NCBI RefSeq assembly: GCF_037975245.1
Contig: NC_092564.1
Span: 9,335,984 to 9,399,983, forward strand
Length of the DNA stretch: 64,000 bases
Origin: Apostichopus japonicus
Lineage: Eukaryota > Echinodermata > Holothuroidea > Aspidochirotida > Stichopodidae
Direction of reading: 5' to 3'
The stretch's first letter is position 1. Each line of letters opens with the position of its first letter. Positions 8,701 to 38,203 of this stretch are shown here, in pieces. The notes beneath the pieces were generated by a model. That model did not search any database, was not told where the DNA came from, and saw only the letters and a program-made list of their open reading frames with translations. A program made the translations under genes and the position numbers.

Positions 8701-11225
8701 TATATATATTCATTTGCCTTTGTCGTTTACCTCCATTGCATAAACATAAAGTCTGTTCAAAGTATCTCTTTCGAGATCCGGCTTTAGGAATCACAAATGA
8801 TTTTCGAGTTGGTTAGCATCATGTTTGATCTCTAGAGTAAGGCAAAATATGTCACCAAAAACAGAACTAGTATTGTTCGATACAGGTGATTAACGCCTAC
8901 AGTGGAATTACGATCTTCCTTACCGGTTTCGAACCTCTGGACATACAATCAGCGTCCATAGCCTAGTGGTTAGGGTGTCCGCGTACAGAGCGGGAGGCCC
9001 GTGGTTCGAATCCCGGTGGAGGCTGAAAGTTTTTTCACTGTTCTTGATTTTCCAACTCATTACGATTTTCATATATATATAAAGATATATATATATAAAA
9101 ATATATATCTGCTATGGATAGAAAATTCGACATAAATACATGTTTTTCGTCTGTCAGCTATTTGCTTCCTTTGTAGAAGGAACACACATTTCATTACGAT
9201 TGTTCTTAATTGCTACAATTTATAGACACAACACCCCCTGTACTGACTTGTCCAAATATAAGAGAGCCAGCCCCAGGAAATGATTTTCAGAAGGCGGTGG
9301 AGTTTGCCGATGCAGGCTGTACAGATGATTCCGGTTCTTACACATTTACCTGTAATCGCGAGACTGGTTCGATGTTTTCAATATGGGAAACGGAGTCCGT
9401 ATCTTGCTCGTGTACTGATGGGTCAGATAATACGGCAGATTGTACTTTTACTGTCGAAGTTTTCGGTAAGGTTGTCAATGTTTTAAACGGTTTCATTATA
9501 CATGATACCACATTTGAAAGAAACTTCTCACAATAAATGTTGCAAGTTAATCAGGAGTAGGCAATCCGGGTTCCCCACTTATTCGCAGCAAAGAGTGTAG
9601 TAGGTTGATGTCTATTTTCTATGTCTATTTTTTACCGTTGACGTAAAGTATGGGCAAAATTCATGTCTTAAGTATGCAAACTTGGCGCCAAAAAAAAACC
9701 CCAAAAAAGGGATTTGTTGTAAGTTGCTATTCGAAAGCACCGTACGGCGTACTTATCACTACATTCATAAGCTCCACTGAAGGTAGAATCAAAATAATTT
9801 GAAAAATGGCGCACACTTTATTATTTATGTACTTAATGAGGAAATGTTTCATGTTTTGTTACGTCCAGTGTGTTTCCGAAATGTCACTTAAGCTTGAAAT
9901 AACAATAAAAATTGAAGAAAAGAGAATTTTATATTTTGAAATTGCGTTGGACTGGAATTCACAAGTTTAAAAGCTCAATTCTGCTAGTGTTATAGAGTCT
10001 ATGGTACAACGACAAATGCTTCCACAATCGTTCCTTTACTGAGAATACCCTAGCAGAGCAAAAACCCTACCGTGTATAATTAAATTATATTATTAAATGA
10101 AGTTAGATGTTATCATAAGCATTCAAACATCCAACATCCAACAACAAGTGAATTATAACTATATGTGGAGTCAGTTTGATACAACAAATGGGTGTTAACA
10201 TACTCGCGGACTCCGTTGTTTCTCATCATTCAGTTAGACTGTACGTCTTGTTAACTTTACACTCATTGTGCCCAAAACACCGTCATTCTAAAACTGATGA
10301 TGGATGTGAAGATACTCCGCTATACACAACATGCCCCGCTCGTGACACTGGTAGCTCCACTTGTCATGCAGACATGATACTGGTAGCTCCACTTGTCATG
10401 CAGACATGATACTGGTAGCTCCACTTGTCATGCAGACATGATACTGGTAGCTCCACTTGTCATGCAGACATGGTACTGGTAGCTCCACTTGTCATACAGA
10501 CATGATACTGGTAGCTCCACTTGTCATGCAGACATGATACTGGTAGCTCCACTTGCCATACAGACATGATACTGGTAGCTCCACTTGTCATGCAGACATG
10601 ATACTGGTAGCTCCACTTGTCATGCAGACATGATACTGGTAGCTCCACTTGCCATACAGACATGATACTGGTAGCTCCCTTTGCCATACAGACATAACAC
10701 TGGTAGCTTCACTTGTATAATAATAATAATAATGATAATTATAATAATAATAATAATAACAATAATCATAATAACAATCATAATAATAATAAATAATAAC
10801 AATAATAATAACTATAATGATAATAATAGCAAGATTAGTATTAATAATAATATAAATAATAATAATTATATTAATAATAATATTATTAGTAATAATGATA
10901 ATAATAATAAGAAGAATAATAGTAATAATAGTTATAATAATAATAATAAAATGATAATTATAATAATAAAAATAATAATAATAATATTCAAACTGAGACC
11001 ATAGAACACTTGTTCTGGTCCTGTTATGTCACCTCTAGCCTTCATTTAGACTGTGAGCAAAGGTTTTTTGGGCGGCAGTTTATTTTTTCGAAAAGAGATT
11101 TAAACATTGAAGTACATTAAACTGTTTACATTATGATGTCCGTGTATGAATTATGTAACATACGTACTGTATTTCATGAATTATATCTGAATAAATGAGA
11201 TGGCAAAAAATATATGATAATAATA

Positions 11226-11321
<96 letters not shown>

Positions 11322-14300
11322 TTTTTTTCATCCTACGTTTATTTCAACTATACATTAGTATACAAATATCGTATCCATTCAAAAATAGCAAAAGTTAAAT
11401 AACAATGAAGTTGAGCAATACCATGCAGTATAATAACGACCAACGTGGCGGATAGAAAACAAATAAATATGATAAGAACAATAACAAGAAGTACTACAAT
11501 TTATAGAAAAACTACAAGAATCCCAGACTTACTACGAAAATATTACAACGAATAGCAGCAAAATATAAGAATTGAGGATGCGGAATTTGCGAAAATATTA
11601 AATATTTGAGATATTTATTAATGAGGAGAAAGCATCCTTGAGTTCCTCGAAATTAATTTTATTCTTATTATTCTTTTTGTTTTTTTCCGAGATTCGGACC
11701 TTGACCAAAGCCTTTATCGTTCAAATGGTTGCATTCCAGATCCTTATTTTACTGATTTACAAAATCCCATAGTAGAGGTTGATAATTAATTGGCTTGTGA
11801 GGGTAGGCTTTGTCTAGATGAATACACCCAAGCCCTCGAAGCGTTGAAAAACGACAAGGCGCCAGGTAGCGATGGTCTTTCGGCCAATTTTTATAAAAAG
11901 TTCTGGGATTCAATCGGTGAATTAGTTCTAGAGTCTCTTAATCATGGCTTTGATAAATGTAGTTTTTCCACTGAGCAATCGAGGGGTATTATCACTCTTA
12001 TCCTTAAACCTACGAAAGACCCCATGTCCCTGCAGAATTATCGCCCTTTTACTTTATTGAACACTGACTATAAGATCGGTGCTAAAGCTATTGCCACCAG
12101 GCTGAAAACTGTAATTCAATCTCTTATTGGCCCTCATCAAACTGGTTTTTTTCAAAAGACAGATTTATCGGTGAAAACATAAGATTTGTTTTAGATTTAA
12201 TATATTACGCGGCAGAGCGAGATATTCCTGGCTTCATTTTCATGATAGATTTTGAAAAAGCTTTCGGTAAGCTTGAGTGGGATTTTATTAATGAGACACT
12301 ATCCTTTTTCAATTTTGGTACCAGTTTTAAAAAGTGGGTGAATGTGTTTTACAAAAATACTACTGCTTGTGTATGTAACAACGGTTTTCCACTGGTTTTT
12401 TTCACTTGAGAGAGGAGTAAGGCAGGGATGCCCGCTAAGTCCTTATTTATTTATTCTTGCAGCGGAAGTTTGTGCATTAAAAATTCAAAATTACCACTAC
12501 ATAAGAGGGATCACAATTAATAATAAGGAAGTCAGGATCATGCAATACGCTGATGACACAACTCTCTTTCTCGATAATAGAAGAAACTCTTTAAAGGAGG
12601 CATTGAACATTCTTAATCAACTGAGACTTGCTTCCGGATTGACAATTAATTTAACCAAATCGAGTATTTTCCGCTTGCAGAGAAAAAGAGGACGAGTATT
12701 CGAGTTAACTTTTGAAACTGTATCAACAATGTGCTATGAAAATCGAATACAGTTCTGTAGTAACTATACTGACACAAATGTATTCGACATTTCATCATGT
12801 AAGCCTATACTTGAGAGGGATACAACTATACTAGATATCATAATTCGGTCCAAAAGCGGACCTTATATAGCCGTGAACTGATGTGTGCTCACACTTTACT
12901 GAGACTGTTTGTCCCTTTCAATTTCACACTCGTTTTATTCAAACACCGTAATCCACAATGAATTTAATCATAAACGATTTATGTACAGACGAGACTCCGC
13001 CCGTCGCAGAATGTCCCGACAGCATGACAAGGACAGCTCCAGATGAATCAAATAGTTTGTCTGTCGATTTTGACGAATCCCCACGATGTACTGATAACTC
13101 TGGTGCAGAAATTACTCCTCTATGTGATGCTGCTGACGGGTCTGTGTTCTCGATTGGTGAAAGAGAAGTTACATGCAGTTGCACTGATGCAGCCGACCTT
13201 GAGGACTCATGTAAATTCACGGTAACAGTTGTAGGTAGGTGTCCAGATCTACTCATTTCCTCAAGATAAAATAAGATGTAAACCAGAAGAGGACGAGAAA
13301 TGGAAGGTTTTCGACTTATTTTTTATCAGCGCAGAATGTCATGTCTCAATGCTGACACTATATTATGTATGAATCGAAAGTTGAACTGAACCAAATGTAC
13401 AGAGATTCATGATACTGAATTTGGAAAAGTATTGCAGAGAAAAAGAGGACGAGTATTCGAGTTAACTTTTGAAACTGTATCAACAATGTGCTATGAAAAT
13501 CGAGTAGAGTTCTGTAGTAACTATACTGACACAAATGTATTCGACATTTCATCTTGTAAGCCTATACTTGAGAGGGATACAACTATACTAGATATCATAA
13601 TTCGGTCAAAAAGCGGACCTTATATAGCCGTGAACTGATATGTGCTCACACTTTACTGAGACTGTTTGTCCCTTTCAATTTCACACTCGTTTTACTCAAA
13701 CACCGTAATCCACAATGAATTTAATCATAAACGATTTATGTACAGACGAGACTCCGCCCGTCGCAGAATGTCCCGACAGCATGACAAGGACAGCTCCAGA
13801 TGAATCAAATAGTTTGTCTGTCGATTTCGACGAATCCCCACGATGTACTGATAACTCTGGTGCAGAAATTACTCCTCTCTGTGATGCTGCTGACGGGTCT
13901 GTGTTCTCGATTGGTGAAAGAGAAGTTACATGCAGTTGCACTGATGCAGCCGACCTTGAGGACTCATGTAAATTCACGGTAACAGTTGTAGGTAGGTGTC
14001 CAGATCTACTCATTTCCTCAAGATAAAATAAGATGTAAACCAGAAGAGGACGAGAAATGGAAGGTTTTCGACTTATTTTTTATCAGCGCAGAATGTCATG
14101 TCTCAATGCTGACACTATATTATGTATGAATCGAAAGTTGAACTGAACCAAATGTACAGAGATTTATGATACTGAATTTGGAAAAGTATTGCAGAGAAAA
14201 AGAGGACGAGTATTCGAGTTAACTTTTGAAACTGTATCAACAATGTGCTATGAAAATTGAATACAGTTCTGTAGTAACTATACTGACACAAATGTATTCG

Positions 14301-17300
14301 ACATTTCATCTTGTAAGCCTATACTTGAGAGGGATACAACTATACTAGATATCATAATTCGGTCCAAAAGCGGACCTTATATAGCCGTGAACTGATATGT
14401 GCTCACACTTTACTGAGACTGTTTGTCCCTTTCAATTTCACACTCGTTTTACTCAAACACCGTAATCCACAATGAATTTAATCATAAACGATTTATGTAC
14501 AGACGAGACTCCGCCCGTCGCAGAATGTCCCGACAGCATGACAAGGACAGCTCCAGATGAATCAAATAGTTTGTCTGTCGATTTCGACGAATCCCCACGA
14601 TGTACTGATAACTCTGGTGCAGAAATTACTCCTCTATGTGATGCTGCTGACGGGTCTGTGTTCTCGATTGGTGAAAGAGAAGTTACATGCAGTTGCACTG
14701 ATGCAGCCGACCTTGAGGACTCATGTAAATTCACGGTAACAGTTGTAGGTAGGTGTCCAGATCTACTCATTTCCTCAAGATAAAATAAGATGTAAACCAG
14801 AAGAGGACGAGAAATGGAAGGTTTTCGACTTATTTTTTATCAGCGCAGAATGTCATGTCTCAATGCTGACACTATATTATGTATGAATCGAAAGTTGAAC
14901 TGAACCAAATGTACAGAGATTTATGATACTGAATTTGGAAAAGTATTGCAGAGAAAAAGAGGACGAGTATTCGAGTTATCTTTTGAAACTGTATCAACAA
15001 TGTGCTATGAAAATCGAGTAGAGTTCTGTAGTAACTATACTGACACAAATGTATTCGACATTTCATCTTGTAAGCCTATACTTGAGAGGGATACAACTAT
15101 ACTAGATATCATAATTCGGTCCAAAAGCGGACCTTATATAGCCGTGAACTGATATGCGCTCACACTTTACTGAGACTGTTTGTCCCTTTCAATTTCACAC
15201 TCGTTTTACTCAAACACCGTAATCCACAATGAATTTAATCATAAACGATTTATGTACAGACGAGACTCCGCCCGTCGCAGAATGTCCCGACAGCATGACA
15301 AGGACAGCTCCAGATGAATCAAATAGTTTGTCTGTCGATTTCGACGAATCCCCACGATGTACTGATAACTCTGGTGCAGAAATTACTCCTCTATGTGATG
15401 CTGCTGACGGGTCTGTGTTCTCGATTGGTGAAAGAGAAGTTACATGCAGTTGCACTGATGCAGCCGACCTTGAGGACTCATGTAAATTCACGGTAACAGT
15501 TGTAGGTAGGTGTCCAGATCTACTCATTTCCTCAAGATAAAATAAGATGTAAACCAGAAGAGGACGAGAAATGGAAGGTTTTCGACTTATTTTTTATCAG
15601 CGCAGAATGTCATGTCTCAATGCTGACACTATATTATGTATGAATCGAAAGTTGAACTGAACCAAATGTACAGAGATTTATGATACTGAATTTGGAAAAG
15701 TATTGCAGAGAAAAAGAGGACGAGTATTCGAGTTAACTTTTGCAACTGTATCAACAATGTGCTATGAAAATCGAGTAGAGTTCTGTAGTAACTATACTGA
15801 CACAAATGTATTCGACATTTCATCTTGTAAGCCTATACTTGAGAGGGATACAACTATACTAGATATCATAATTCGGTCCAAAAGCGGACCTTATATAGCC
15901 GTGAACTGATATGTGCTCACACTTTACTGAGACTGTTTGTCCCTTTCAATTTCACACTCGTTTTACTCAAACACCGTAATCCACAATGAATTTAATCATA
16001 AACGATTTATGTACAGACGAGACTCCGCCCGTCGCAGAATGTCCCGACAGCATGACAAGGACAGCTCCAGATGAATCAAATAGTTTGTCTGTCGATTTCG
16101 ACGAATCCCCACGATGTACTGATAACTCTGGTGCAGAAATTACTCCTCTCTGTGATGCTGCTGACGGGTCTGTGTTCTCGATTGGTGAAAGAGAAGTTAC
16201 ATGCAGTTGCACTGATGCAGCCGACCTTGAGGACTCATGTAAATTCACGGTAACAGTTGTAGGTAGGTGTCCATTGATACTCATTTCGTTAAGATAAAAT
16301 AAGATGTAAACCAGAAGAGGACGAGAAATGGAAGGTTTTCGACCTATTTTTTATCAGCGCAGAATGTCATGTCTCAATGCTGACACTATATTATGAATGA
16401 ATCGATAGTTGAACTACACCAAATGTACAGAGGATTATGATACTGAATTTGGAAAAGTACTGCAGAGAAAAAGATGACGAATATTCGTGTTAACTTTTGT
16501 AACTGTATCAACAATGTGCTATGAAAATTGAATACAGTTCTGTAGTAACTATACTGACACAAATGTTTTTTTCCATCATTCATCTTGTAAGCCTATACTT
16601 GAGAGGGATACAACTATACAAGATATCATAATTCGGTCAAAAAGCGAACCTTACATAGCCGTGAACTGATATGTTCTCATCCTTCACTGAGACTGTTTGT
16701 CTCTTTCAATTTCACACTCGTTTTACTCAAACACCGCCGTAATCCACAATGAATTTAATCATAAACGATTTATGTACAGACGAGACTCCGCCCGTCGCAG
16801 AATGTCCCGACAGCATGACAAGGACAGCTCCAGATGAATCAAATAGTTTGTCTGTCGATTTCGACGAATCCCCACGATGTACTGATAACTCTGGTGCAGA
16901 AATTACTCCTCTCTGTGATGCTGCTGACGGGTCTGTGTTCTCGATTGGTGAAAGAGAAGTTACATGCAGTTGCACTGATGCAGCCGACCTTGAGGACTCA
17001 TGTAAATTCACGGTAACAGTTGTAGGTAGGTGTCCAGATCTACTCATTTCCTCAAGATAAAATAAGATGTAAACCAGAAGAGGACGAGAAATGGAAGGTT
17101 TTCGACTTATTTTTTATCAGCGCAGAATGTCATGTCTCAATGCTGACACTATATTATGTATGAATCGAAAGTTGAACTGAACCAAATGTACAGAGATTTA
17201 TGATACTGAATTTGGAAAAGTATTGCAGAGAAAAAGAGGACGAGTATTCGAGTTAACTTTTGAAACTGTATCAACAATGTGCTATGAAAATTGAATACAG

Positions 17301-20300
17301 TTCTGTAGTAACTATACTGACACAAATGTATTCGACATTTCATCTTGTAAGCCTATACTTGAGAGGGATACAACTATACTAGATATCATAATTCGGTCCA
17401 AAAGCGGACCTTATATAGCCGTGAACTGATATGTGCTCACACTTTACTGAGACTGTTTGTCCCTTTCAATTTCACACTCGTTTTACTCAAACACCGTAAT
17501 CCACAATGAATTTAATCATAAACGATTTATGTACAGACGAGACTCCGCCCGTCGCAGAATGTCCCGACAGCATGACAAGGACAGCTCCAGATGAATCAAA
17601 TAGTTTGTCTGTCGATTTCGACGAATCCCCACGATGTACTGATAACTCTGGTGCAGAAATTACTCCTCTCTGTGATGCTGCTGACGGGTCTGTGTTCTCG
17701 ATTGGTGAAAGAGAAGTTACATGCAGTTGCACTGATGCAGCCGACCTTGAGGACTCATGTAAATTCACGGTAACAGTTACAGGTAGGTGTCCATTTATAC
17801 TCATTTCGTTAAGATAAAATAAGATGTTAACCAGAAGAGGACGAGAAATGGAAGGTTTTCGACATATTTTTTATCAGCGCAGAATGTCATGTCTCAATGC
17901 TGACACTATATTATGAATGAATCGATAGTTGAACTACACCAAATGTACAGAGAATTATGATACTGAATTTGGAAAAGTACTGCAGAGAAAAAGATGACGA
18001 ATATTCGTGTTAACTTTTGAAACTGTATCAACAATGTGCTATGAAAATTGAATACAGTTCTGTAGTAACTATACTGACACAAATGTATTCGACATTTCAT
18101 CTTGTAAGCCTATACTTGAGAGGGATACAACTATACTAGATATCATAATTCGGTCCAAAAGCGGACCTTATATAGCCGTGATCTGATATGTGCTCACACT
18201 TTACTGAGACTGTTTGTCCCTTTCAATTTCACACTCGTTTTACTCAAACACCGTAATCCACAATGAATTTAATCATAAACGATTTATGTACAGACGAGAC
18301 TCCGCCCGTCGCAGAATGCCCCGACAGCATGACCAGGACAGCTCCAGATGAATCAAATAGTTTGTCTGTCGATTTCGACGAATCCCCACGATGTACTGAT
18401 AACTCTGGTGCAGAAATTACTCCTCTATGTGATGCTGCTGACGGATCTGTGTTCTCGATTGGTGAAAGAGAAGTTACATGCAGTTGCACTGATGCAGCCG
18501 ACCTTGAGGACTCATGTAAATTCACGGTAACAGTTGTAGGTAGGTGTCCAGATCTACTCATTTCCTCAAGATAAAATAAGATGTAAACCAGAAGAGGACG
18601 AGAAATGGAAGGTTTTCGACTTATTTTTTATCAGCGCAGAATGTCATGTCTCAATGCTGACACTATATTATGTATGAATCAAAAGTTGAACTGAACCAAA
18701 TGTACAGAGAATTATGATACTGAATTTGGAAAAGTATTGCAGAGAAAAAGAGGACGAGTATTCGAGTTAACTTTTGAAACTGTATCAACAATGTGCTATG
18801 AAAATCGAGTAGAGTTCTGTAGTAACTATACTGACACAAATGTATTCGACATTTCATCTTGTAAGCCTATACTTGAGAGGGATACAACTATACTAGATAT
18901 CATAATTCGGTCAAAAAGCGGACCTTATATAGCCGTGAACTGATATGTGCTCACACTTTACTGAGACTGTTTGTCCCTTTCAATTTCACACTCGTTTTAC
19001 TCAAACACCGTAATCCACAATGAATTTAATCATAAACGATTTATGTACAGACGAGACTCCGCCCGTCGCAGAATGTCCCGACAGCATGACAAGGACAGCT
19101 CCAGATGAATCAAATAGTTTGTCTGTCGATTTCGACGAATCCCCACGATGTACTGATAACTCTGGTGCAGAAATTACTCCTCTCTGTGATGCTGCTGACG
19201 GGTCTGTGTTCTCGATTGGTGAAAGAGAAGTTACATGCAGTTGCACTGATGCAGCCGACCTTGAGGACTCATGTAAATTCACGGTAACAGTTACAGGTAG
19301 GTGTCCATTTATACTCATTTCGTTAAGATAAAATAAGATGTAAACCAGAAGAGGACGAGAAATGGAAGGTTTTCGACCTATTTTTTATCAGCGCAGAATG
19401 TCATGTCTCAATGCTGACACTATATTATGAATGAATCGATAATTGAACTACACCAAATGTACAGAGAATTATGATACTGAATTTGGAAAAGTACTGCAGA
19501 GAAAAAGATGACGAATATTCGTGTTAACTTTTGAAACTGTATCAACAATGTGCTATGAAAATTGAATACAGTTCTGTAGTTACTATACTGACACAAATGT
19601 TTTCTTCCATCATTCATCTTGTAAGCCTATACTTGAGAGGGATACAACTGTACAAGATATCATAATTCGGTCAAAAAGCGAACCTTACATAGCCGTGAAC
19701 TGATATGTTCTCATCCTTCACTGAGACTGTTTGTCTCTTTCAATTTCACACTCGTTTTACTCAAACACCGTAATCCACAATGAATTTAATCATAAACGAT
19801 TTATGTACAGACGAGACTCCGCCCGTCGCAGAATGCCCCGACAGCATGACAAGGACAGCTCCAGATGTATCAGATAGTTTGTCTGTCGATTTCGACGAAT
19901 CCCCACAATGTACTGATAACTCTGGTGCAGAAATTACTCCTCTATGTGATGTTGCTGACGGGTCTGTTTTCTCGATTGGTGAAAGAGAAGTTACCTGCAG
20001 TTGCACTGATGCAGCCGACCTTGAGGACTCATGTAAATTCACGGTAACAGTTGTAGGTAGGTGTCCAGATCTACTCATTTCCTCAAGATAAAATAAGATG
20101 TAAACCAGAAGAGGACGAGAAATGGAAGGTTTTCGACTTATTTTTTATCAGCGCAGAATGTCATGTCTCAATGCTGACACTATATTATGTATGAATCGAA
20201 AGTTGAACTGAACCAAATGTACAGAGATTTATGATACTGAATTTGGAAAAGTACTGCAGAGAAAAAGAGGACGAGTATTCGAGTTAACTTTTGACACTGT

Positions 20301-23300
20301 ATCAACAATGTGCTATGAAAATCGAGTAGAGTTCTGTAGTAACTATACTGACACAAATGTATTCGACATTTCATCTTGTAAGCCTATACTTGAGAGGGAT
20401 ACAACTATACAAGATATCATAATTCGGTCAAAAAGCGGACCTTATATAGCCGTGATCTGATATGTTCTCACCCTTTACTGAGACTGTTCGTCCCTTTCAA
20501 TTTCACACTCGTTTCACTTAAACACCGTAATCCACAATGAATTTAATCATAAACGATTTATGTACAGACGAGACTCCGCCCGTCGCAGAATGCCCCGACA
20601 GCATGACAAGGGAAGCTCCATCTACAGGAAATAGTTTGTCTGTCACATTCGACCAATCCCCACAATGTACTGATAACTCTGGTGCAGCAATTACTCCTCT
20701 ATGTGATGCTGCTGACGGATCTGAGTTTTCGATTGGTGAAAGAGAAGTTACATGCAGTTGCACTGATGCAGCCGACCTTGAGGACTCATGTAAATTCACG
20801 GTAACAGTTACAGGTAGGTGTCCATTTATACTCATTTCGTCAAGATAATATAAGATGTTAACCAGAAGAGGACGAGAAATGGAAGGTTTTCGACTTATTT
20901 TTTATCAGCGCAGAATGTCATGTCTCAATGCTGACACTATATTATGTATGAATCGAAAGTTGAACTACACCAAATGTACAGAGATTCATGATACTGAATT
21001 TGGAAAAGTACTGCAGAGAAAAAGAGGACGAGTATTCGAGTTAACTTTTGAAACTGTATCAACAATGTGCTATGAAAATTGAATACAGTTCTGTAGTAAC
21101 TATACTGACACAAATGTATTCGACATTTCATCTTGTAAGCCTATACTTGAGAGGGATACAACTATACAAAATATCATAATTCGGTCCAAAAGCGGACCTT
21201 ATATAGCCGTGATCTGATATGTTCTCACCCTTTACTGAGACTGTTCGTCCCTTTCAATTTCACACTCGTTTTACTCAAACACCGTAATCCACAATGAATT
21301 TAATCATAAACGATTTATGTACAGACGAGACTCCGCCCGTCGCAGAATGCCCCGACAGCATGACCAGGACAGCTCCAGATGAATCAAATAGTTTGTCTGT
21401 CGATTTCGACGAATCCCCACGATGTACTGACAACTCTGGTGCAGAAATTACTCCTCTATGTGATGCTGCTGACGGGTCTGTTTTCTCGATTGGTGAAAGA
21501 GAAGTTACATGCAGTTGCACTGATGCAGCCGACCTTGAGGACTCATGTAAATTCACGGTAACAGTTACAGGTAGGTGTCCATTTATACTCATTTCTTCAA
21601 GATAAAATACTATGTAAATCAGAAGAGGACGAGAAATGGAAGGTTTTCGACTTATTTTTTATCAGCGCAGAATGTCATGTCTCAATGCTGACACTATATT
21701 ATTTATGAATCGATAGTTGAACTACACCAAATGTACAGAGAATTATGATACTGAATTTGGAAAAGTACTGCAGAGAAAAAGATGACGAATATTCGAGTTA
21801 ACTTTTGAAACTGTATCAACAATGTGCTATAAAGATTAAATACAGTTCTGTAGTAACTATACTGACACAAATGTATTCTTCCACCATTCATCTTGTAAGC
21901 CTATACTTGAGAGGGATACAACTATACAAGATATCATAATTCGGTCCAAAAGCGGACCTTACATAGCCGTGAACTGATATGTTCTCATCCTTCACTGAGA
22001 CTGTTTGTTTCTTTCAATTTCACACTCGTTTTACTCAAACACCGTAATCCACAATGAATTTAATCATAAACGATTTATGTACAGACGAGACTCCGCCCGT
22101 CGCAGAATGCCCCGACAGCATGACAAGGACAGCTCCAGATGTATCAGATAGTTTGTCTGTCGATTTCGACGAATCCCCACGATGTACTGATAACTCTGGT
22201 GCAGAAATTACTCCTCTATGTGATGTTGCTGACGGGTCTGTTTTCTCGATTGGTGAAAGAGAAGTTACATGCAGTTGCACTGATGCAGCCGACCTTGAGG
22301 ACTCATGTAAATTCACGGTAACAGTTACAGGTAGGTGTCCATTTATACTCATTTCGTCAAGATAATATAAGATGTTAACCAGAAGAGGACGAGAAATGGA
22401 AGGTTTTCGACTTATTTTTTATCAGCGCAGAATGTCATGTCTCAATGCTGACACTATATTATGTATGAATCGAAAGTTGGACTGAACCAAATGTACAGAG
22501 ATTCATGATACTGAATTTGGAAAAGTATTGCAGAGAAAAAGAGGACGAGTATTCGAGTTAACTTTTGAAACTGTATCAACAATGTGCTATGAAAATCGAA
22601 TACAGTTCTGTAGTAACTATACTGACACAAAAAGTATTCGACATTTCATCTTGTAAGCCTATACTTGAGAGGGATACAACTATACAAGATATCATAATTC
22701 GGTCCAAAAGCGGACCTTATATAGCCGTGATCTGATATGTTCTCACCCTTTACTAAGACTGTTCGTCCCTTTCAATTTCACACTCGTTTTACTCAAACAC
22801 CGTAATCCACAATGAATTTAATCATAAACGATTTATGTACAGACGAGACTCCGCCCGTCGCAGAATGCCCCGACAGCATGACAAGGGAAGCTCCATCAAC
22901 AGGAAATAGTTTGTCTGTCACATTCGACCAATCCCCACAATGTACTGATAACTCTGGTGCAGCAATTACTCCTCTATGTGATGCTGCTGACGGATCTGAG
23001 TTTTCGATTGGTGAAAGAGAAGTTACATGCAGTTGCACTGATGCAGCCGACCTTGAGGACTCATGTAAATTCACGGTAACAGTTACAGGTAGGTGTCCAT
23101 TTATACTCATTTCGTCAAGATAAAATAAGATGTAAACCAGAAGAGGACGAGAAATGGAAGGTTTTCGACCTATTTTTATCAGCGCAGAATGTCATGTCTC
23201 AATGCTGACACTATATTATGTATGAATCGAAAGTTGAACTGAACCAAATGTACAGAGATTCATGATACTGAATTTGGAAAAGTATTGCAGAGAAAAAGAT

Positions 23301-26300
23301 GACGAATATTCCAGTTAACTTTTGCAACTGTATCAACAATGTGCTATGAAAATCGAATACAGTTCTGTAGTAACTATAATGACACAAATGTATTCTTCCA
23401 CCATTCATCTTGTAAGCCTATACTTGAGAGGGATACAACTATACAAGATATCATAATTCGGTCAAAACGCGGACCTTACATAGCCGTGAACTGATATGTT
23501 CTCATCCTTCACTGAGACTGTTTGTTTCTTTCAATTTCACACTCGTTTTACTCAAACACCGTAATCCACAATGAATTTAATCATAAACGATTTATGTACA
23601 GACGAGACTCCGCCCGTCGCAGAATGCCCCGACAGCATGACAAGGACAGCTCCAGATGTATCAGATAGTTTGTCTGTCGATTTCGACGAATCCCCACGAT
23701 GTACTGATAACTCTGGTGCAGAAATTACTCCTCTATGTGATGTTGCTGACGGGTCTGTTTTCTCGATTGGTGAAAGAGAAGTTACATGCAGTTGCACTGA
23801 TGCAGCCGACCTTGAGGACTCATGTAAATTCACGGTAACAGTTACAGGTAGGTGTCCATTTATACTCATTTCGTCAAGATAATATAAGATGTTAACCAGA
23901 AGAGGACGAGAAATGGAAGGTTTTCGACTTATTTTTTATCAGCGCAGAATGTCATGTCTCAATGCTGACACTATATTATGTATGAATCGAAAGTTGAACT
24001 GAACCAAATGTACAGAGATTCATGATACTGAATTTGGAAAAGTATTGCAGAGAAAAAGAGGACGAGTATTCGAGTTAACTTTTGAAAATGTATCAACAAT
24101 GTGTTATGAAAATCGAGTTGAGTTCTGTAGTATCTATACTGACACAAATGTATTCGACATTTCATCTTGTAAGCCTATACTTGAGAGGGATACAACTATA
24201 CAAAATATCATAATTCGGTCAAAAAGCGGACCTTATATAGCCGTGATCTGATATGTTCTCACCCTTTACTGAGACTGTTCGTCCCTTTCAATTTCACACT
24301 CGTTTTACTCAAACACCGTAATCCACAATGAATTTAATCATAAACGATTTATGTACAGACGAGACTCCGCCCGTCGCAGAATGCCCCGACAGCATGACAA
24401 GGGAAGCTCCATCAACAGGAAATAGTTTGTCTGTCACATTCGACCAATCCCCACAATGTACTGACAATTCTGGTGCAGCAATTACTCCTCTATGTGATGT
24501 TGCTGACGGATCTGAGTTTTCGATTGGTGAAAGAGAAGTTACATGCAGTTGCACTGATGCAGCCGACCTTGAGGACTCATGTAAATTCACGGTAACAGTT
24601 ACAGGTAGGTGTCCATTTCTACTCATTTCGTCAAGAAAAAATAAGATGTAAACCAGAAGAGGACGAGAAAATGGAAGGTTTTCGACTTATTTTTATCAGC
24701 GCAGAATGTCATGTCTCAATGCTGACACTATATTATGTATGAATCGATAGTTGAACTACACCAAATGTACAGAGAATTATGATACTGAATTTGGAAAGGT
24801 ACTGCAGAGAAAAAGATGACGAATATTCGAGTTATTTTTTGAAACTGTATCAACAATGTGCTATGAAAATCGAATACAGTTCTGTAGTAACTATACTGAC
24901 ACAAATGTATTCTTCCACCATTCATCTTGTAAGCCTATACTTGAGAGGGATACAACTATACAAGATATCATAATTCGGTCAAAAAGCGGACCTTACATAG
25001 CTGTGATCTGATATGTTCTCATCCTTCACTGAGACGGTTCGTCCCTTTCAATTTTATACTCGTTTTACTCAAACACCGTAATCCACAATGAATTTAATCA
25101 TAAACGATTTATGTACAGACGAGACCCCGCCCGTCGCAGAATGCCCCGACAGCATGACAAGGACAGCTCCAGATGAATCAAATAGTTTGTCTGTCGATTT
25201 CGACGAATCCCCACGATGTACTGATAACTCTGGTGCAGAAATTACTCCTCTATGTGATGTTGCTGACGGGTCTGTTTTCTCGATTGGTGAAAGAGAAGTT
25301 ACATGCAGTTGCACTGATGCAGCCGACCTTGAGGACTCATGTAAATTCACGGTAACAGTTACAGGTAGGTGTCCATTTATACTCATTTCGTCAAGATAAT
25401 ATAAGATGTTAACCAGAAGAGGACGAGAAATGGAAGGTTTTCGACTTATTTTTTATCAGCGCAGAATGTCATGTCTCAATGCTGACACTATATTATGAAT
25501 GAATCGATAGTTGAACTACACCAAATGTACAGAGATTTATGATACTGAATTTGGAAAGGTACTGCAGAGAAAAAGATGACGAATATTCGAGTTAACTTTT
25601 GAAACTGTATCAACAATGTGCTATGAAAATCGAATACAGTTCTGTAGTAACTATACTGACACAAATGTATTCTTCCACCATTCATCTTGTAAGCCTATAC
25701 TTGAGAGGGATACAACTATACTAGATATCATAATTCGGTCCAAAAGCGGACCTTACATAGCCGTGAACTGATATGTTCTCATCCTTCACTGAGACTGTTT
25801 GTCCCTTTCAATTTCACACTCGTTTTACTCAAACACCGTAATCCACAATGAATTTAATCATAAACGATTTATGTACAGACGAGACTCCGCCCGTCGCAGA
25901 ATGCCCCGACAGCATGACAAGGACAGCTCCAGATGTATCAGATAGTTTGTCTGTCGATTTCGACGAATCCCCACGATGTACTGATAACTCTGGTGCAGAA
26001 ATTACTCCTCTATGTGATGTTGCTGACGGGTCTGTTTTCTCGATTGGTGAAAGAGAAGTTACATGCAGTTGCACTGATGCAGCCGACCTTGAGGACTCAT
26101 GTAAATTCACGGTAACAGTTACAGGTAGGTGTCCATTTATACTCATTTCGTCAAGATAATATAAGATGTTAACCAGAAGAGGACGAGAAATGGAAGGTTT
26201 TCGACTTATTTTTATCAGCGCAGAATGTCATGTCTCAATGCTGACACTATATTATGTATGAATCGAAAGTTGAACTGAACCAAATGTACAGAGATTCATG

Positions 26301-29300
26301 ATACTGAATTTGGAAAAATATTGCAGAGAAAAAGAGGACGAGTATTCGAGTTAACTTTTGAAACTGTATCAACAATGTGCTATGAAAATCGAGTAGAGTT
26401 CTGTAGTAACTATACTGACACAAATGTATTCGACATTTCATCTTGTAAGCCTATACTTGAGAGGGATACAACTATACAAGATATCATAATTCGGTCCAAA
26501 AGCGGACCTTATATAGCCGTGATCTGATATGTTCTCACCCTTTACTGAGACTGTTCGTCCCTTTCAATTTCACACTCGTTTTTACTCAAACACCGTAATC
26601 CACAATGAATTTAATCATAAACGATTTATGTACAGACGAGACTCCGCCCGTCGCAGAATGCCCCGACAGCATGACAAGGGAAGCTCCATCTACAGGAAAT
26701 AGTTTGTCTGTCACATTCGACCAATCCCCACAATGTACTGACAATTCTGGTGCAGCAATTACTCCTCTATGTGATGCTGCTGACGGATCTGAGTTTTCGA
26801 TTGGTGAAAGAGAAGTTACATGCAGTTGCACTGATGCAGCCGACCTTGAGGACTCATGTAAATTCACGGTAACAGTTACAGGTAGGTGTCCATTTCTACT
26901 CATTTCGTCAAGATAATATAAGATGTAAACCAGAAGAGGACGAGAAAAGGAAGGTTTTCTATTTTTTTTATCAGCGCAGAATATGTCTCAATGCTGACAC
27001 TATATTATGTATGAATCGAAAGTTGAACTGAACCAAATGTACAGAGATTTATGATACTGAATTTGGAAAAGTACTGCAGAGAAAAAGAGGACGAGTATTC
27101 GAGTTAACTTTTGAAACTGTATCAACAATGTGCTATGAAAATCGAATACAGTTCTGTAGTAACTATACTGACACAAATGTATTCGACATTTCATCTTGTA
27201 AGCCTATACTTGAGAGGGATACGACTATACAAGATATCATAATTCGATCCAAAAGCGGACCTTATATAGCCGTGATCTGATATGTTCTCACCCTTTACTG
27301 AGACTGTTCGTCCCTTTCAATTTCACACTCGTTTTACTCAAACACAGTAATCCAAAATGCATTGGACAATTCATCTTGTAAGCCTAAACTTGGTTTAATG
27401 TACACATAATTATCATACTGAATTTGTTAACACGCTGCAAGGAAAATCAGAATGCAAAATGCATTGAGGTTTCGATGACTTCAATGAACTACACTTCTCA
27501 TTGTTAACCAGAAGTAGGTTTTACAATATAAATGGCCCGAACCACTATTTTGATGTACAATTACACCATGGCATGGTAAACACAGGTCAGTGTACTGTAC
27601 AATACACACCTCCACCAAAAACAAGTATGAGAAGTATCCACGATTCCCAATTTCAGATATCATGTAAAGGTGTTTAGAGTTTGACCTCTGGTGACCTCAA
27701 TTGAGATTTGACCTTACAAGCAACAGATTCTTGTACTCAATATGGTAACTCCATATACCATGTATGAAAAGAATTCATGATCTCTACCATGAGAAATCAT
27801 GTCTTAGAGATTTTCAGGCTTCGAAAAAAAAATTAAAAGTACTCGCTATTTGGCCACCGTGACTAAAAAACTTCTTGCCAAATTTCACTCGCCAGTAGGC
27901 CTATGATTGCTGTTCAAGTCTCCATAGTAGAGATCTACAACATCAATACTTTCTGTGAAAAAAAGATGCAATCTGTGCTACGTAATTGCACATTAGAAAG
28001 CTGTCTTTCTGTTCAATATGAAATTTAACCTTTTCCACCAAAAGTATGAACAAAGTAAAACATGACGCAGAATCATAAATAAGCAGCTAGGCCTACTATA
28101 GTGTCTTAAACAATTAAAACTACTACAACATCTGTAAAATACCTACGAAGATAGCTTGGCTTCTGTTACATTTGTGCTCCTCTATTTTACTAGGCATGTT
28201 CTATGCAGTAACTAGGTGTGCGCGAGTCCTAAGCCTTATACAGTAACTCACTGCTACTTTGAACTGCTGCTCGATTAGAGCGAAGGCTTAGTACATTTTC
28301 TCATTTATTTATCTTGTCTTTTAGCTGCAGATTGATGCGCGAAAAACATATCGCTATTACTCCATTACACTGCCGAAATCAAAGCGATATTTTACGCAGT
28401 GAAAATCTGAGGTTGTAAGAGCATCTATCTTCCATAAATCCTAGCAGAAACAACAGCAAACTTGTCTCAAAACTCCTTAAATTGTTCTATACTTTGCGAA
28501 TTATGACTGATAGCCAGTAGGAAAATTGCCTTAAGAAATAATTAAGGAGATGTTTTGCCATCTTAAGTGCATTGGTATTCTGACTGGTATTCTTCACGTT
28601 GTTGTATTAACGAACCATATTCTTGCCAACCGTTGCTGGCCTAGACAACATAAAATTGCTCACAAGCCTACCCAGGTTTGTTTAAGTTGTCCCATAATCA
28701 TAAACGTGACGAAAGTCCAACGTTACTTTTAAGGCCAAGCTATGCTGAAACTGCTGGAAGAAACTACACAAATTGATATCAACAGCCGATCCAGACAATA
28801 GCTCGTGAACTCACTGCCAAACTAAGACCGTTTTACACAATTATTTCGCATTGGTCATAGTACACAATCTTACTATGTATGTATGTATGTATGTATGTAT
28901 GTATATGTGATCTTCCCGCAAGCAGGAACTCGCGAAAGAAGCCATGGAGGCTTATAGACTCGCAAGCTGACCGAAGCCAATCTCTCGGCACTAGACGAAC
29001 TGTTAAGTTTCATAAACGCTGCCTGGTCAAATCGATACTACATCCAACCTGGAATAAATACGACGGAAAACGTCCTATAGATTCGCTGTACTACAAGGAG
29101 TACAAACAAATTTTGCACGCAAAGTATGCCTTCGAGCGGCACGTTCTAGCCATGATGCAATTTTGTTCGAATTTTCAATTTTAGATTCCACGGATGCTCA
29201 TTTACAATTGCTAATAGCCTCCTAATCGTATGAGGCGTAGCGCACATGTTATCTGATAGGCTGGTCGGTGGGAGATACGGTAGCTCATAAAAGAAAATTT

Positions 29301-32236
29301 CCACAATTGGCGTCTGTTGACTCCAAATGACCTTTGACCTCCCCACAAAACAATCATGAGGGTTCTTCTACTCAATGTGGTACTCATATACACCAAATAT
29401 TAGATTGGTCCAAGCTTCCCTTCTTGAGATACCGTGTTTACAAGCGAGGCGTCACACACACACACACCCACACCCATGTTGGTTTTACATTCCAACCGAG
29501 GAACCCATTGTATTTTCCATTGTTCAAATCCACGTACCCTAACCTTAACAATACCCCATTCAATAGAACTCTTCCGAGGACGTGGAGATTCTTTAGAAAT
29601 CACAACCGAGGACCTGAAATTCTTTTGTTCAAGTCCTCGGTCAGATAGCAAAACAAACGCACACACACACCCACCCACACGCACACCCAAGTTGCAAAAT
29701 CATGCTTTGTTCAGGTTATTCCTTAAACTTAAACACTTATTACGACTTTGAAAAGTATACTTGAAGGGACCTTCGGGGAGAAAAGAAGCATGACGAATAC
29801 TCGATATAAATATATAGTCGCGTAAATATGAACTGTGATCATGCAGAGGAGGGTAGCCTACGTTCCTCTCTCGAGATCAGTGCAGGGAGGTGTTGACTTA
29901 ACGGAAACATTTTGGAATTTGTACTAGAACTTGAGTATATATAATGGTGGCAGAGGAAGAGCATTTGCGTGGACATACATTTTGGTCTGGAATTTAATGT
30001 GTAGGGTGTCTTTGTGATTGACACTCTTTACATTCGGGAAATACTTGCACAATTTTCGTAACTGGTCAGGTTATTAGAAAACTGGAAAGGGTCAACTGGA
30101 TCGCCTGAGTCCCTTCAAGTCTCTTTCTCCCTTTGTATCACAACCTATAATACAGGTACATTTTAATACACATGTACGGTCCCGAGGTGACGGTTCAAAG
30201 ATCTTCCTACCAAAAACATTACTGTAAACATTACATCATATGTAGTCACGAACAGCACCGATAGTAATGCGTAATATCTTGATACTTTAGTGGAATCCAT
30301 CTAATCTGAAAGTTTAGAGTTTCTGTAAAATGTAAGCACTCCTAACTTCATACAATCTTAACAATAATTTAAATTTATGAGTTGGAATCTTCGATATATC
30401 GTACTATCATGGAATTATATTTATTATAAATATATGTTTTAATTAAATTTATAAACTATTTATTTTTATTTTGGCTATAGTTCGTGCTGAATTGCTTTTT
30501 GCACATTAAATACTCTAACGTGCAAGATCATTGGGTTTCTTTGACAGATGTCGATGAACCAGTTATAACTTGCGTGAATCCTTCACTTAAATACGTTGAC
30601 TTAGAGACGTACCTGGCCTACGTTAATTGGGAGGAACCAACCTGTGTCGACAACAGCGGTAGTGTTTTGCAGATTTACTGCGATGAAGATTTCGGTGACA
30701 GGGCAATTGGAACCTATACAGTCAGTTGTTATTGCATAGACGAATCAGACAATTCGGCTACTTGTGATATCATCGCAGAAGTGGATGGTAAGTAAAGGAA
30801 CTTTTAAGCAAACCCAACTTTACCCTCCTTTCCTTCATATAGAGATGCATGTGATATACAATTTCTGAAAACGAAAATAGCCTAGGATGGAAAGGTTCAG
30901 CAACTTTTGATAACGACATATCAAAGTATAGATTATAGTCTTGTAATTGGTAAAGCTTCCTAAGAAACTGGATGAGGTATAGCCTTTTCAGAAATTTTAT
31001 TTTTATTAGTAAACTTTTTAAAAGAATGAGAAGACAACTAACCCCAAATTCCGGACTTCATTTCTGTGCAGCCTATGTACTCCCCAAACTTACCATGTGC
31101 AATTTTTTAATAGGATATTAATTTGAGGAAACGTGGACAAGATATGTTACTTAACTGCAAAGTATGAGTAATGTAGTGCCAATATTATAAAGAATGATCT
31201 CGAAATGATAGTCATTACAGATGGGTTAACCACAAGAATGCACCATCTGAAAACTGTACTCTCTACAAGGTCAAGCACTAGCAAATGTAACTTTTGTCAC
31301 CAAGTAGCATATTTATATGGTGACAGATGCACCTCGGCAAAAAGATATCATAACAATAAAACTTAATATTATGATGATTGTTTCTCCTTCCTTCTTCTCT
31401 CAAACTAATAATGAATTAAAATGTAAAGGTAGTTCAGTTACAATCACATTAAAATGAGCACATGCAACTCCAAATAGCTTATCACACTGGCGAAGCCAAG
31501 AAATTGACAAGTAAGCTCCACCTACGTGCTCGCATAGATCGCACAGGTGTGTTCTAAAGTTATTGTTCTGAAAGGATTAAATGTAGGTCATGTAACAAAA
31601 CAATAATTACTTATCATATTGTTGTAACCGAGCGTGAACAACTGGAGAAAAAATCTTCCAAGGAAACATAAACAAAAAATCTGGGGACTTATCTCCAGAG
31701 AAGCTGTAAGGGACTAAAAGGACTCAATGCTATGTTAAACATATTCTATTATATGCATGGAATTAACACCGGCTCCATATTTGTGTAATCGGTTTGTTGA
31801 TAGTTAAATACACAATACTGGTATTTAAAAGTGAAAGGTACATGACAGTAACATGGAATAATTACTGGAACGAATTGTTAATTATCGAAATCTTGGTTTT
31901 TGTGGAAAGAACGTGTTGAATACTTCCATAGAACGAAATTAAGATTGTCTATATCTCGTATAAGGCTGCATAACAATATGGTATTAAGTATTACAATATG
32001 ATAACGCTGATCCCTATCGTGACCGCCAGGTGTGCCCCATGCTGACTGCGTACAGGAGTCTGATACTAGTTTTTTTCTGGACATCAACGATCCAAATGAC
32101 CCTGTTGAGATTCGAGCCAAAATAAAACTGCCAGAAGTGGGCACTTACTCGATCACCGTCATCGCTACTCCAACCGGTGAAACCCCAGGGGAAGAACTTA
32201 CTTGTGATTACGCCGTGGATGTTTACGAAAATAACT
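5662..32236 (+). CDS. Secreted multi-HYR (hyalin-repeat) protein, full gene span
   Basis: Recognised coding exons are 5662-5713, 7849-8055, 9226-9465, nineteen array exons from 12989 to 26881, 30548-30787 and 32030-32236, with a terminal exon from 33850. All internal junctions are phase 1 and all flanking dinucleotides are AG/GT. The sum is 5,620 nt, and the first two bases of the terminal exon complete a stop codon, giving 1,873 residues. Domain order is signal peptide, TIL-like cysteine-rich module, 21 HYR domains, then a 69-residue tail module. HYR domains have an Ig-like fold and occur in hyalin and other extracellular adhesion proteins. Each array domain has about 19 acidic and 4 basic residues, so the product should be strongly acidic and extracellular; calcium-linked matrix or coat function is an inference from hyalin. 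No transmembrane segment follows the signal peptide. Exons that are too divergent to notice in the large introns could be missing. Confidence 0.85.
5714..7848 (+). other. Intron 1 of the HYR gene
   Basis: About 2.1 kb of AT-rich sequence between GTATGT and a pyrimidine-rich tract ending in AATAG. No conserved coding segment or complete transposon is recognised. The short frames within it look random. Confidence 0.6.
7849..8055 (+). CDS. HYR protein exon 2: TIL-like cysteine-rich module
   Basis: This 207-nt phase 1-1 exon encodes 69 residues with eight cysteines. The end, CICPEGTTLSEADGTECIEQ followed by C, has the CxC, PxG and terminal cysteine spacing typical of trypsin-inhibitor-like (TIL) modules found beside VWF-type and matrix domains. 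Canonical TIL domains have ten cysteines, so this is TIL-like rather than a confirmed member. The acceptor is CTATTAATAG and the donor is GTGAGT. Its place right after the signal peptide makes it the mature N-terminal module. Confidence 0.75.
8579..8710 (+). repeat. tRNA-derived SINE, copy 1
   Basis: A tRNA-like head at 8579-8650 has an A box (TAGCCTAGTGG, 8586-8596) and a perfect B box (GGTTCGAGTCC, 8630-8640). The acceptor stem pairs at six of seven positions and the anticodon arm TCCGC/GCGGG encloses GTACAGA. The T stem does not pair well, and a fixed tail (TGAAAGTTTTTTCACTG and onward) follows, ending in TA repeats. This favours a SINE over a working tRNA gene. Confidence 0.75.
8952..9090 (+). 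repeat. tRNA-derived SINE, copy 2
   Basis: Same head and tail as the copy at 8579, with B box GGTTCGAATCC and a longer TA-rich tail. It was copied together with its flank by the 373-bp duplication. Confidence 0.75.
9226..9465 (+). CDS. HYR protein exon 3: HYR domain 1
   Basis: A 240-nt phase 1-1 exon encodes an 80-residue HYR domain. It begins DTTPPVLTCP, has CTDDSG in the middle and ends CTFTVEVFG, the usual HYR start, Asp-rich core and final strand. It has six cysteines, including the SCSC pair seen in the array domains. Acceptor is TTTATAG, donor GTAAGG. It is clearly divergent from the array exons and is probably an old copy. Confidence 0.9.
9466..10342 (+). other. Intron 3 of the HYR gene, first part
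   Basis: No gene or complete mobile element is recognised. The sequence is AT-rich and leads into the minisatellite at 10343. Confidence 0.55.
10343..10717. repeat. 32-bp minisatellite
   Basis: About 11.7 copies of a 32-bp unit containing GATACTGGTAGCTCCACTTG lie head to tail, with a few substitutions between copies. It runs directly into a long TAA-rich microsatellite. The frames across it are repeat by-products. Confidence 0.92.
10718..10990. repeat. (TAA)n-rich microsatellite, imperfect
   Basis: About 270 bases of TAA/AAT trinucleotides with scattered substitutions. The Asn/Ile-rich frames across it are not genes. Confidence 0.92.
11213..11320. repeat. Compound (ATA)n-(TA)n microsatellite
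   Basis: ATA/TAA repeats to about 11255 are followed by about 32 uninterrupted TA dinucleotides ending at 11320. Probably length-variable between individuals. Confidence 0.93.
11700..12674 (+). mobile_element. Broken LINE (L1/Tx1-like) reverse-transcriptase fragment
   Basis: Three frame segments together resemble the RT domain of a non-LTR retrotransposon. The first (about 11790-12182) has KAPGSDGLSANFYKKFWD, then LQNYRPFTLLN and HQTGF. The second (about 12160-12390) has FIFMIDFEKAFG. The third (to 12674) has RQGCPLSP and the catalytic YADD near 12546, followed by SGLTINLTKS. There is an in-frame TAA near 11788 and frame changes near 12160 and 12390, so it is dead. No 5' end, endonuclease or poly(A) tail is present. 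The right end is cut at TTGCAG, where the HYR exon array begins. Confidence 0.9.
12989..13234 (+). CDS. HYR array exon 1, type A
   Basis: An 82-residue HYR domain, phase 1-1. It begins DETPPVAECPDS, has CTDNSG and GEREVTCSCTDA, and ends CKFTVTVVG. The acceptor is TTATGTACAG, the donor GTAGGT. The upstream part of its unit is replaced by the LINE fragment, so only about 314 nt of unit intron precede it. Confidence 0.9.
13746..13991 (+). CDS. HYR array exon 2, type A
   Basis: Same protein as array exon 1; synonymous differences only (GATTTC for GATTTT, CTC for CTA). Ends TVVG. Followed by an X-type intron. Confidence 0.9.
14503..14748 (+). CDS. HYR array exon 3, type A
   Basis: Identical protein to array exon 1, ending TVVG. 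X-type intron follows. Confidence 0.9.
15260..15505 (+). CDS. HYR array exon 4, type A
   Basis: Identical protein to array exon 1, ending TVVG. X-type intron follows. Confidence 0.9.
16017..16262 (+). CDS. HYR array exon 5, type A
   Basis: Identical type A protein, ending TVVG, with the CTC codon variant. It is followed by the first Y-type intron and by an extra CCG before the next unit, giving the longest spacing (763 bp). Confidence 0.9.
16780..17025 (+). CDS. HYR array exon 6, type A
   Basis: Identical type A protein, ending TVVG, CTC codon variant. X-type intron follows. Confidence 0.9.
17537..17782 (+). CDS. HYR array exon 7, type A with TVTG end
   Basis: Type A core, but the last residues are TVTG (ACA in place of GTA), the end otherwise seen in the distal half. 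The following intron is a mosaic: Y-type in its first half (GATGACGAATATTCG), X-type afterwards (ATTCGACATTTCATC). Confidence 0.9.
18294..18539 (+). CDS. HYR array exon 8, type A
   Basis: Type A protein ending TVVG. It carries the synonymous TGC in AECP and ACCAGG in MTR that recur in array exon 12. X-type intron follows. Confidence 0.9.
19051..19296 (+). CDS. HYR array exon 9, type A with TVTG end
   Basis: Type A core with the TVTG end, like array exon 7. A Y-type intron follows (unit spacing 760 bp). Confidence 0.9.
19811..20056 (+). CDS. HYR array exon 10, type B variant
   Basis: First type B domain (PDVSDS and CDVADG), with a unique ESPQC in place of ESPRC, and the TVVG end. X-type intron follows. 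It forms a B-C pair with array exon 11. Confidence 0.9.
20568..20813 (+). CDS. HYR array exon 11, type C
   Basis: First type C domain: REAPSTGNS, VTFDQSPQC, GAAITP and GSEFS replace the type A residues, nine changes against type A. Ends TVTG. X-type intron follows. Confidence 0.9.
21325..21570 (+). CDS. HYR array exon 12, type A with TVTG end
   Basis: Type A protein apart from the TVTG end, with synonymous changes shared with array exon 8. Y-type intron follows. Confidence 0.9.
22085..22330 (+). CDS. HYR array exon 13, type B
   Basis: Standard type B (PDVSDS, ESPRC, CDVADG) with TVTG end. X-type intron follows; pairs with the next type C exon. Confidence 0.9.
22843..23088 (+). CDS. HYR array exon 14, type C
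   Basis: Type C domain with CDAADG and TVTG end. The following intron is Y-like in the AAGATGACGAATATTC and TTCTTCCACC segments but X-like near its start. Confidence 0.9.
23602..23847 (+). CDS. HYR array exon 15, type B
   Basis: Standard type B with TVTG end; same protein as array exon 13. X-type intron follows. Confidence 0.9.
24359..24604 (+). CDS. HYR array exon 16, type C with B-like CDV
   Basis: Type C apart from CDVADG, a type B residue, so this exon looks like a C/B exchange. Y-type intron follows. Confidence 0.9.
25119..25364 (+). CDS. HYR array exon 17, A/B hybrid
   Basis: Type A in its first half (PDESNS) and type B in its second (CDVADG), ending TVTG. Y-type intron follows. Confidence 0.9.
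25879..26124 (+). CDS. HYR array exon 18, type B
   Basis: Standard type B with TVTG end. X-type intron follows; pairs with the final type C exon. Confidence 0.9.
26636..26881 (+). CDS. HYR array exon 19, type C
   Basis: Last array exon, type C with CDAADG and TVTG end. Its X-like intron segment continues to about 27357, where similarity to the unit breaks down. Confidence 0.9.
27358..30547 (+). other. Intron after the array, with a decayed unit remnant
   Basis: The first 100 bases hold scrambled remnants of the array intron. The remainder has no recognised exon. It contains a (TATG)n microsatellite at 28874-28905 and CA-rich stretches near 29453-29480 and 29655-29690. An open stretch near 28900-29180 (about 100 codons) matches nothing I recognise and may be a mobile-element remnant. 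Confidence 0.55.
28874..28905. repeat. (TATG)n microsatellite
   Basis: About eight TATG units in an intron of the HYR gene. Confidence 0.9.
30548..30787 (+). CDS. HYR protein: last HYR domain (domain 21)
   Basis: A 240-nt phase 1-1 exon encodes DVDEPVITCVN, CVDNSG, SCYCIDESDNSATC and a final strand ending EVDG. The six-cysteine pattern of the other domains is kept, but the sequence is far from the array types. Acceptor TTTGACAG, donor GTAAGT. Confidence 0.88.
30788..32029 (+). other. Intron between HYR 21 and the tail exon
   Basis: About 1.2 kb of AT-rich sequence. No exon or complete repeat recognised. Confidence 0.55.
32030..32236 (+). CDS. HYR protein: 69-residue tail exon, possibly a cassette
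   Basis: This 207-nt phase 1-1 exon begins GVPHADCVQESD and ends DYAVDVYENN plus one base (T). The spacing of a TC before the last strand and the YAVDVY strand recall the end of an HYR or Ig-like fold, but it is not a recognisable HYR domain. The donor GTAAGT is strong. Joined to the terminal exon at 33850, the split codon becomes TAA, so inclusion ends the protein at NN. Unspliced read-through would add about ten residues before TGA. Confidence 0.7.
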
Positions 32237-37449: not shown

Positions 37450-37627
37450 TGTCCACCCATGGGCGTCAATCCAGGGGGGACGGGGGGACACGTCCCCCCC
37501 ACATTTTGATGGATGGGGAAAACAATATCAAATGTCCCCCCCCACACATTTGGAAAAAGAGTAGTGTTGTGGCTCTATTTGGTTACGGCTTACACATCTT
37601 AGGATTCATATCCTCGAATATCACTCA

Positions 37628-37960: not shown

Positions 37961-38203
37961 ACGTCGTTAGAGGGGGTGTGGGTGTGTCTCACCCCCAAGC
38001 CATGGTAAAACTGACGCTAGTTGGAAAATTGGAGTGTGACAGTCGGAATTTCCGACTGTCGCACTCTAGTTTATCTAGGCCTTTTCATGTAATTTTTTTT
38101 TTTTTAATTTTGGTCAAAATTGACCTTTAACCTGCAGTCAAAACCGTACAAAACTTCTTATGATTTTGAATACTACAAAAAATGCCTAATAGAACTACCG
38201 TCA

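Follow-up and report, generated by a model that had tools for sequence, protein, structure and literature searches.

Large coding variable-number tandem repeats (VNTRs) made of whole exons are, to our knowledge, few and are best known from humans. In the available excerpt of its description, the kringle IV-2 VNTR of LPA, the gene for human apolipoprotein(a), has between 1 and about 40 units on an allele, with the subtypes KIV-2A, KIV-2B and KIV-2C (PMC11462820). Here we describe an array of the same general kind in a stretch of 64,000 nucleotides (the window) from Apostichopus japonicus (contig NC_092564.1, positions 9,335,984 to 9,399,983; coordinates below count from the first letter of the window). 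The array consists of 19 head-to-tail units on the plus strand (12675..27363), each of which carries one exon for a HYR domain, and the domains fall into three recurring types, A, B and C. With a little better than even confidence, we favour the explanation that these units form the repeated core of a gene whose HYR-domain protein is secreted or displayed on the cell surface. The gene is built like a coding VNTR with units that each encode one domain, and would evolve in concert while retaining one diversified domain type. As in LPA, there is an exon-plus-intron unit for each extracellular domain, the units lie in tandem in one putative gene, and there are several subtypes. The LPA unit, however, is 5.6 kb long and has two exons, while the unit here is about 757 bp long and has one, and the LPA subtypes are called synonymous in the excerpt of that source (PMC11462820) whereas the types here differ by replacements. 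Copy-number polymorphism is established for LPA, whereas the present array is known from one assembled sequence.

Hyalin is a long chain of HYR modules, and in abalone VERL most repeats are homogenised while a few have diverged. According to excerpts of the two sources, the sea urchin egg receptor EBR1 has multiple HYR repeats (PMC8403831), and in EBR1_5 positive selection was confined to three of the seven HYR domains, and seven of the codons concerned cluster in a single repeat (PMC5521101). The locus resembles these proteins in having multiple HYR repeats in what is probably an extracellular protein, and the codons under selection in EBR1_5 HYR repeats are clustered, as are the type C differences described below. 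EBR1 further contains CUB and TSP domains, whereas SEA and transmembrane domains occur in EBR1_5. None of these was found in the 16 stretches of the window scanned with Pfam, and the 3′ part of the gene was likewise not found. The same excerpts do not describe exon-level arrays. VERL, with 23 ZP-N domains, is similar in its tandem domain expansion and is located in the egg coat (PMC8830517, in the part available), but its domains are ZP-N rather than HYR and it coevolves with sperm lysin. A long chain of 23 HYR modules is likewise reported in the available part of the description of HycP (PMC3723904), which, unlike this product, is bacterial. Relatives of the array were not confirmed in viral contigs (3 pattern matches) or genome contigs (22 pattern matches), both searched with short patterns that distant HYR domains could escape, or in plasmids. 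The titles and abstract openings listed in literature searches contained no description of a HYR exon array with introns.

A tblastn search of the window with one array exon translation returned 19 strong copies (86.7–100% identity over 83 aa), with codon starts from 12988 to 26635. It also returned two diverged copies, at 9225 and 30559, and four further matches at chance level (E 6.4–7.3). Each unit combines an intron of about 511 bp with a 246-nt exon that runs from codon start + 1 to codon start + 246, so that the first exon is 12989–13234 and the last 26636–26881. The 18 spacings between units range from 757 to 763 bp (757 bp in eleven cases, 760 bp in four, and 758, 759 and 763 bp in one each), and a first-pass annotation of the window, made from its letters, had correctly counted 19 units of about 757 bp. 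It had placed the array at 12675..27357; a blastn search with the unit consensus gave the same left edge, but moved the right edge to 27363. Unit 1 lacks the 5′ part of its intron, and the intron that follows unit 19 lacks its 3′ end. The description of the domains as near-identical has to be qualified: the array is not uniform and contains seven distinct domain sequences in three types.

All 19 exons are in phase 1-1 and open, with no stop or frameshift, as had been proposed. Open 246-nt windows are rare on the plus strand outside the array (160 of 6972 sampled, 2.3%), and in none of 18 units does the open frame continue across the intron, which together exclude that the exons are open by chance. 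The splice sites also proved intact: 19/19 exons share the same 20 nt leading to and including the acceptor AG and the same intronic donor sequence (GTAGGTGTCCA), and the exon side of the donor reads ACAG or GTAG. It is extremely unlikely that the array is pseudogenic or an unspliced part of a dead gene. A decayed LINE does adjoin it, as might be expected in that case, but 0/19 exons are broken, the splice sites are unchanged and the variation within type A is mostly silent.

The one array domain that was scanned matches Pfam HYR (PF02494) with an E-value of 4.2e-17 and 62.7 bits (cut-off 21.7). When four array exons were aligned with the two flanking HYR exons, six cysteines proved invariant, and the type A domain is acidic (19 D/E versus 4 K/R). 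When solved structures were searched with a single domain, one weak match was found (E 0.83). A profile of six sequences found nine sequences up to E 1, of which the best was 4m03, 'Serine-rich adhesin for platelets' (E 0.0018, 44 positions); this is at most a hint that the array domain may have an adhesin-like fold. An antisense open reading frame (ORF) faces every array exon (the first at 12942–13322), with a length of 127 aa in 14/19 units and 125–133 aa in the others. We set it aside as a by-product of repeat copying; the one of 19 that was scanned had no Pfam match.

Because each unit holds one symmetrical phase 1-1 exon of 246 nt, the gain or loss of a whole unit preserves the reading frame. 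The anatomy is thus that of a coding VNTR, with head-to-tail exon-plus-intron units, a frame that is kept, and probable membership in one transcript. It also bears out the earlier proposal that each gain or loss of a unit would change the protein by exactly one 82-residue domain. Misaligned exchange between units would add or remove such domains in frame, and if exchange is ongoing, the number of units would be expected to vary among individuals. As the 19 units are each shorter than 800 bp, the array is typable with ordinary long reads.

The 19 copies comprise 13 distinct exon sequences. Type A is found in units 1–9, 12 and 17, type B in units 10, 13, 15 and 18, and type C in units 11, 14, 16 and 19. 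Exons 1–9, with the introns between them (12989..19296, plus strand), are therefore all of type A (TAPDESNS..VDFDES), while exons 10–19 (19811..26881, plus strand) follow the order B C A B C B C A B C. The first type C exon (EAPSTGNSLSVTFDQSPQ) lies at 20568..20813 on the plus strand, and the others start at 22843, 24359 and 26636. All four C exons sit directly after a B, for which the chance is 2.6e-4 over the 19 units and 0.0048 within units 10–19. The types, which were first recognised in the protein sequence, are told apart by codons 16–54, most clearly in type C. The three domain types, the B–C pairing and the excess of replacements in type C described below are additions to the first-pass annotation.

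This order also bears on whether the array could be an artefact, in which the assembler multiplied a few true units or miscounted them. The array contains eight exact repeats of 409–933 bp, one to seven unit lengths apart, and those of up to 933 bp are long enough to confuse a short-read assembly. However, all 18 complete units are distinct mosaics, with the closest pairs about three sites (0.4%) apart, and type C consistently follows B. We regard an artefact as highly unlikely, although it is possible that the unit count is off by a few.

The units have exchanged sequence repeatedly, as indicated by these long exact repeats together with a four-combination test, in which 863 of 2145 pairs of informative sites showed all four combinations. 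The mosaic units are what repeated exchange and conversion would leave. Mean whole-unit identity is 97.8% among units 2–9 (28 pairs) and 95.3% among units 10–19 (45 pairs), so that the left part of the array looks more recently homogenised.

Exons and introns are, on average, equally similar, as had been claimed (mean pairwise identity 95.63% over 171 exon pairs and 95.77% over 153 intron pairs, the latter computed on units 2–19 because the intron of unit 1 is incomplete). The claim fails type by type, since the equal means conceal trends in opposite directions. Within type A, the difference is smaller for exons (1.5%) than for introns (3.6–4.0%). Between types A and C, it reaches 8.8% for exons but only 3.8% and 4.7% for the introns that precede and follow them. 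No fixed intron difference separates A from C, either before or after the exon, in a comparison restricted to introns other than the incomplete one of unit 1 and the one after unit 19. We also grouped sites without reference to type labels, using sites that were free of gaps, had two letters and showed each letter in three or more units. Of the groups that split the 18 full units in the same way, the largest had 14 members, all exonic, which separated units 11, 14, 16 and 19; the next largest was a set of six intron sites. In Mantel tests, exon and intron distances were not significantly correlated (p 0.11 and 0.07), and the two halves of the intron were (p 0.0015). Exchange and conversion have reshuffled intron variants until no intron site told type C from type A, while codons 16–54 have been kept as distinct versions, most clearly in type C, which always follows B. 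This pairing of reshuffled introns with a retained, replacement-rich coding block would offer a test of how selection holds repeat types apart against gene conversion.

Fixed differences between type C and types A and B together, all within codons 16–54, amount to 13.5 replacements and 1.5 silent changes (path averages), compared with 7 replacements and 12 silent changes among variants inside A and B taken together and inside C (Fisher p 0.0048); this and the following p-values are optimistic and serve as guides only, as the sites are linked, conversion breaks their independence and the types were first seen in the protein. Counting two sites that vary in both groups only once changes the variants to 6:11 (replacement:silent), with p 0.0039 or 0.0046 depending on whether the fixed differences are taken as 14:2 or 13:2. 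For A and C alone, the fixed differences are 14:2 and the variants 3:10 (p 0.0007). Counted by codon, they are 8:1 and 5:11 (p 0.011), or p 0.041 if the fixed class is taken as 8:2. Within the 11 type A units, eight variants are silent and three are replacements, a higher share of silent changes than the 23% expected under uniform mutation (p 0.0007) or an expectation of 33% (p 0.008). The prevalence of replacements among the differences of type C and of silent changes within A makes it probable that the domain is translated and under constraint. The recurring type C pattern hints that selection may shape the protein.

Several observations weigh against this explanation. Silent divergence is raised in the same block: between A and C, dS is 0.135 and dN 0.184 in codons 16–54, compared with 0.029 for the introns. 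The resulting dN/dS of about 1.4 does not prove positive selection, and an imported old block would fit equally well. Contrary to the constraint seen in A, variation within type B consists of one silent change and three replacements, and A and B are separated by two fixed replacements and no silent change. Ten fixed sites separate the introns before B from those before C, and the homogenisation of introns described above therefore does not extend to all types but is limited to A and C. The set of six intron sites groups all four B units with the type A units 6 and 17, and intron columns 260–319, which lie beside gaps, reach 19.6% divergence in the worst pair, compared with 25% in the exon block. 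We dropped the idea of a strict higher-order repeat of three units, since the period-3 order of whole units, taken as an offset of 3 in units 9–19, is not significant (p 0.095) and only the B–C pair is supported. The exons of units 1–6, 8 and 10 end in GTAGGTAGGT, where the donor hexamer GTAGGT is doubled, four bases apart, and use of its upstream copy as donor would shift the frame. Finally, neither a membrane anchor nor the 3′ end of the gene was found, and no later exon was recognised, with 16 stretches scanned against Pfam.

Much of this could be accounted for by neutral expansion, in which unequal exchange enlarged and partly homogenised the array, any number of domains was tolerated, and type C is no more than an exon haplotype, either old or imported, whose spread accompanied that of the B–C pair. 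Apart from the raised silent divergence (dS 0.135), five codons in the A–C block carry two or three changes, as they would in an old tract; the ten fixed differences between introns before B and before C are expected if the pair was copied as a block; and the mosaic units also fit. Instead of having been built in place by selection, type C may be a block that is old or was imported, and that was copied together with B. What argues against neutrality is the composition of the changes, with fixed C differences of about 14:2 compared with 6:11 for other variants (p about 0.004), and the mostly silent variation within A. We regard purely neutral expansion as possible but doubtful. Our preferred explanation, a retained and diversified domain type in an otherwise exchanging array, leaves room for two origins of type C: selection could have diversified it, or conversion could have brought it in from a diverged HYR exon, after which it was retained.

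A more specific role would be that of a gamete-recognition protein of the EBR1 kind, with HYR repeats at the egg surface that are homogenised except for a few residues diversified by coevolution with sperm. The multiple HYR repeats of EBR1 (PMC8403831) and the restriction of positive selection to HYR repeats in EBR1_5 (PMC5521101), both taken from excerpts of the sources, would fit, as the type C replacements are likewise clustered. The Pfam scan found no CUB, TSP1 or SEA match in its 16 stretches, a small part of the ORFs in the window, and the first exon is TIL-like instead, so we consider this role unlikely. It is also conceivable, though rather improbable, that exchange reshuffles the introns while selection keeps the faces of domains A, B and C apart, so that protein length and the order of faces could vary between individuals and act as an inherited barcode for recognition of self, mates or microbes. 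On the explanation that we favour, the protein would string together no fewer than 21 HYR domains in a long, acidic chain, and would act in the extracellular matrix or in adhesion; it may also serve as a fibre, as suggested in the first-pass annotation.

The exons around the array fit a modular extracellular gene. A likely first coding exon (7794..8055, plus strand), identified from its ORF, ATG and donor, has a signal-peptide-like start (MLFPLSLWTQLLVFLLLIGTLDC), as judged by eye, and a Cys-rich TIL-like stretch (E 0.059, under the Pfam cut-off), and ends in phase 1 before GTGAGT. From this exon, the protein is likely to be extracellular. Diverged HYR exons, both phase 1-1 with candidate splice sites, lie upstream (9226..9465, plus strand; 45% identity by tblastn, Pfam HYR 1.8e-10) and downstream of the array (30548..30787, plus strand; Pfam HYR 8.6e-10), and score 41.4 and 39.3 bits, respectively, against the cut-off of 21.7. 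A further phase 1-1 candidate with candidate splice sites (32030..32236, plus strand) possibly encodes a beta-sandwich domain; its only match was Ig-like_KY (E 0.078, under the cut-off). The same strand and the common phase 1 of the array and the surrounding exons are as expected for one modular extracellular gene, and on these grounds we infer that they are joined in one transcript. The 16 scanned stretches, some of them overlapping or trimmed, were drawn from 166 plus-strand ORFs (array excluded) and 196 minus-strand ORFs of at least 50 aa, and additional exons or genes may therefore have escaped notice.

The array edges show signs of rearrangement. A decayed, frame-shifted LINE-type reverse transcriptase (11790..12668, plus strand) ends where the array starts. 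It matches RVT_1 in three overlapping ORFs (5.2e-5, 0.0043 and 1.4e-14, of which only the last passes the Pfam cut-off), and as the left edge of the array interrupts its ORF, this edge resembles a junction left by recombination. At and beyond the right edge lie remnants of unit sequence that is older and rearranged (27355..27426, plus strand): 27355–27392 is 89.5% identical to unit positions 299–336, and 27397–27426 is 86.7% identical to unit positions 160–189. A 32-bp minisatellite with 11.7 copies (10343–10716) separates the array from the HYR exon upstream of it.

Elsewhere in the window, the C-terminal remnant of a hAT transposase was found at 37565–38002 (PF05699, 7.6e-5). A RING-finger stretch at 55649–56098 (zf-RING_5, 4.6e-6, 26.9 bits with a cut-off of 27.9) probably belongs to a separate gene. 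A 29-bp minisatellite with 37 copies and 93% matches occupies 47765–48842.

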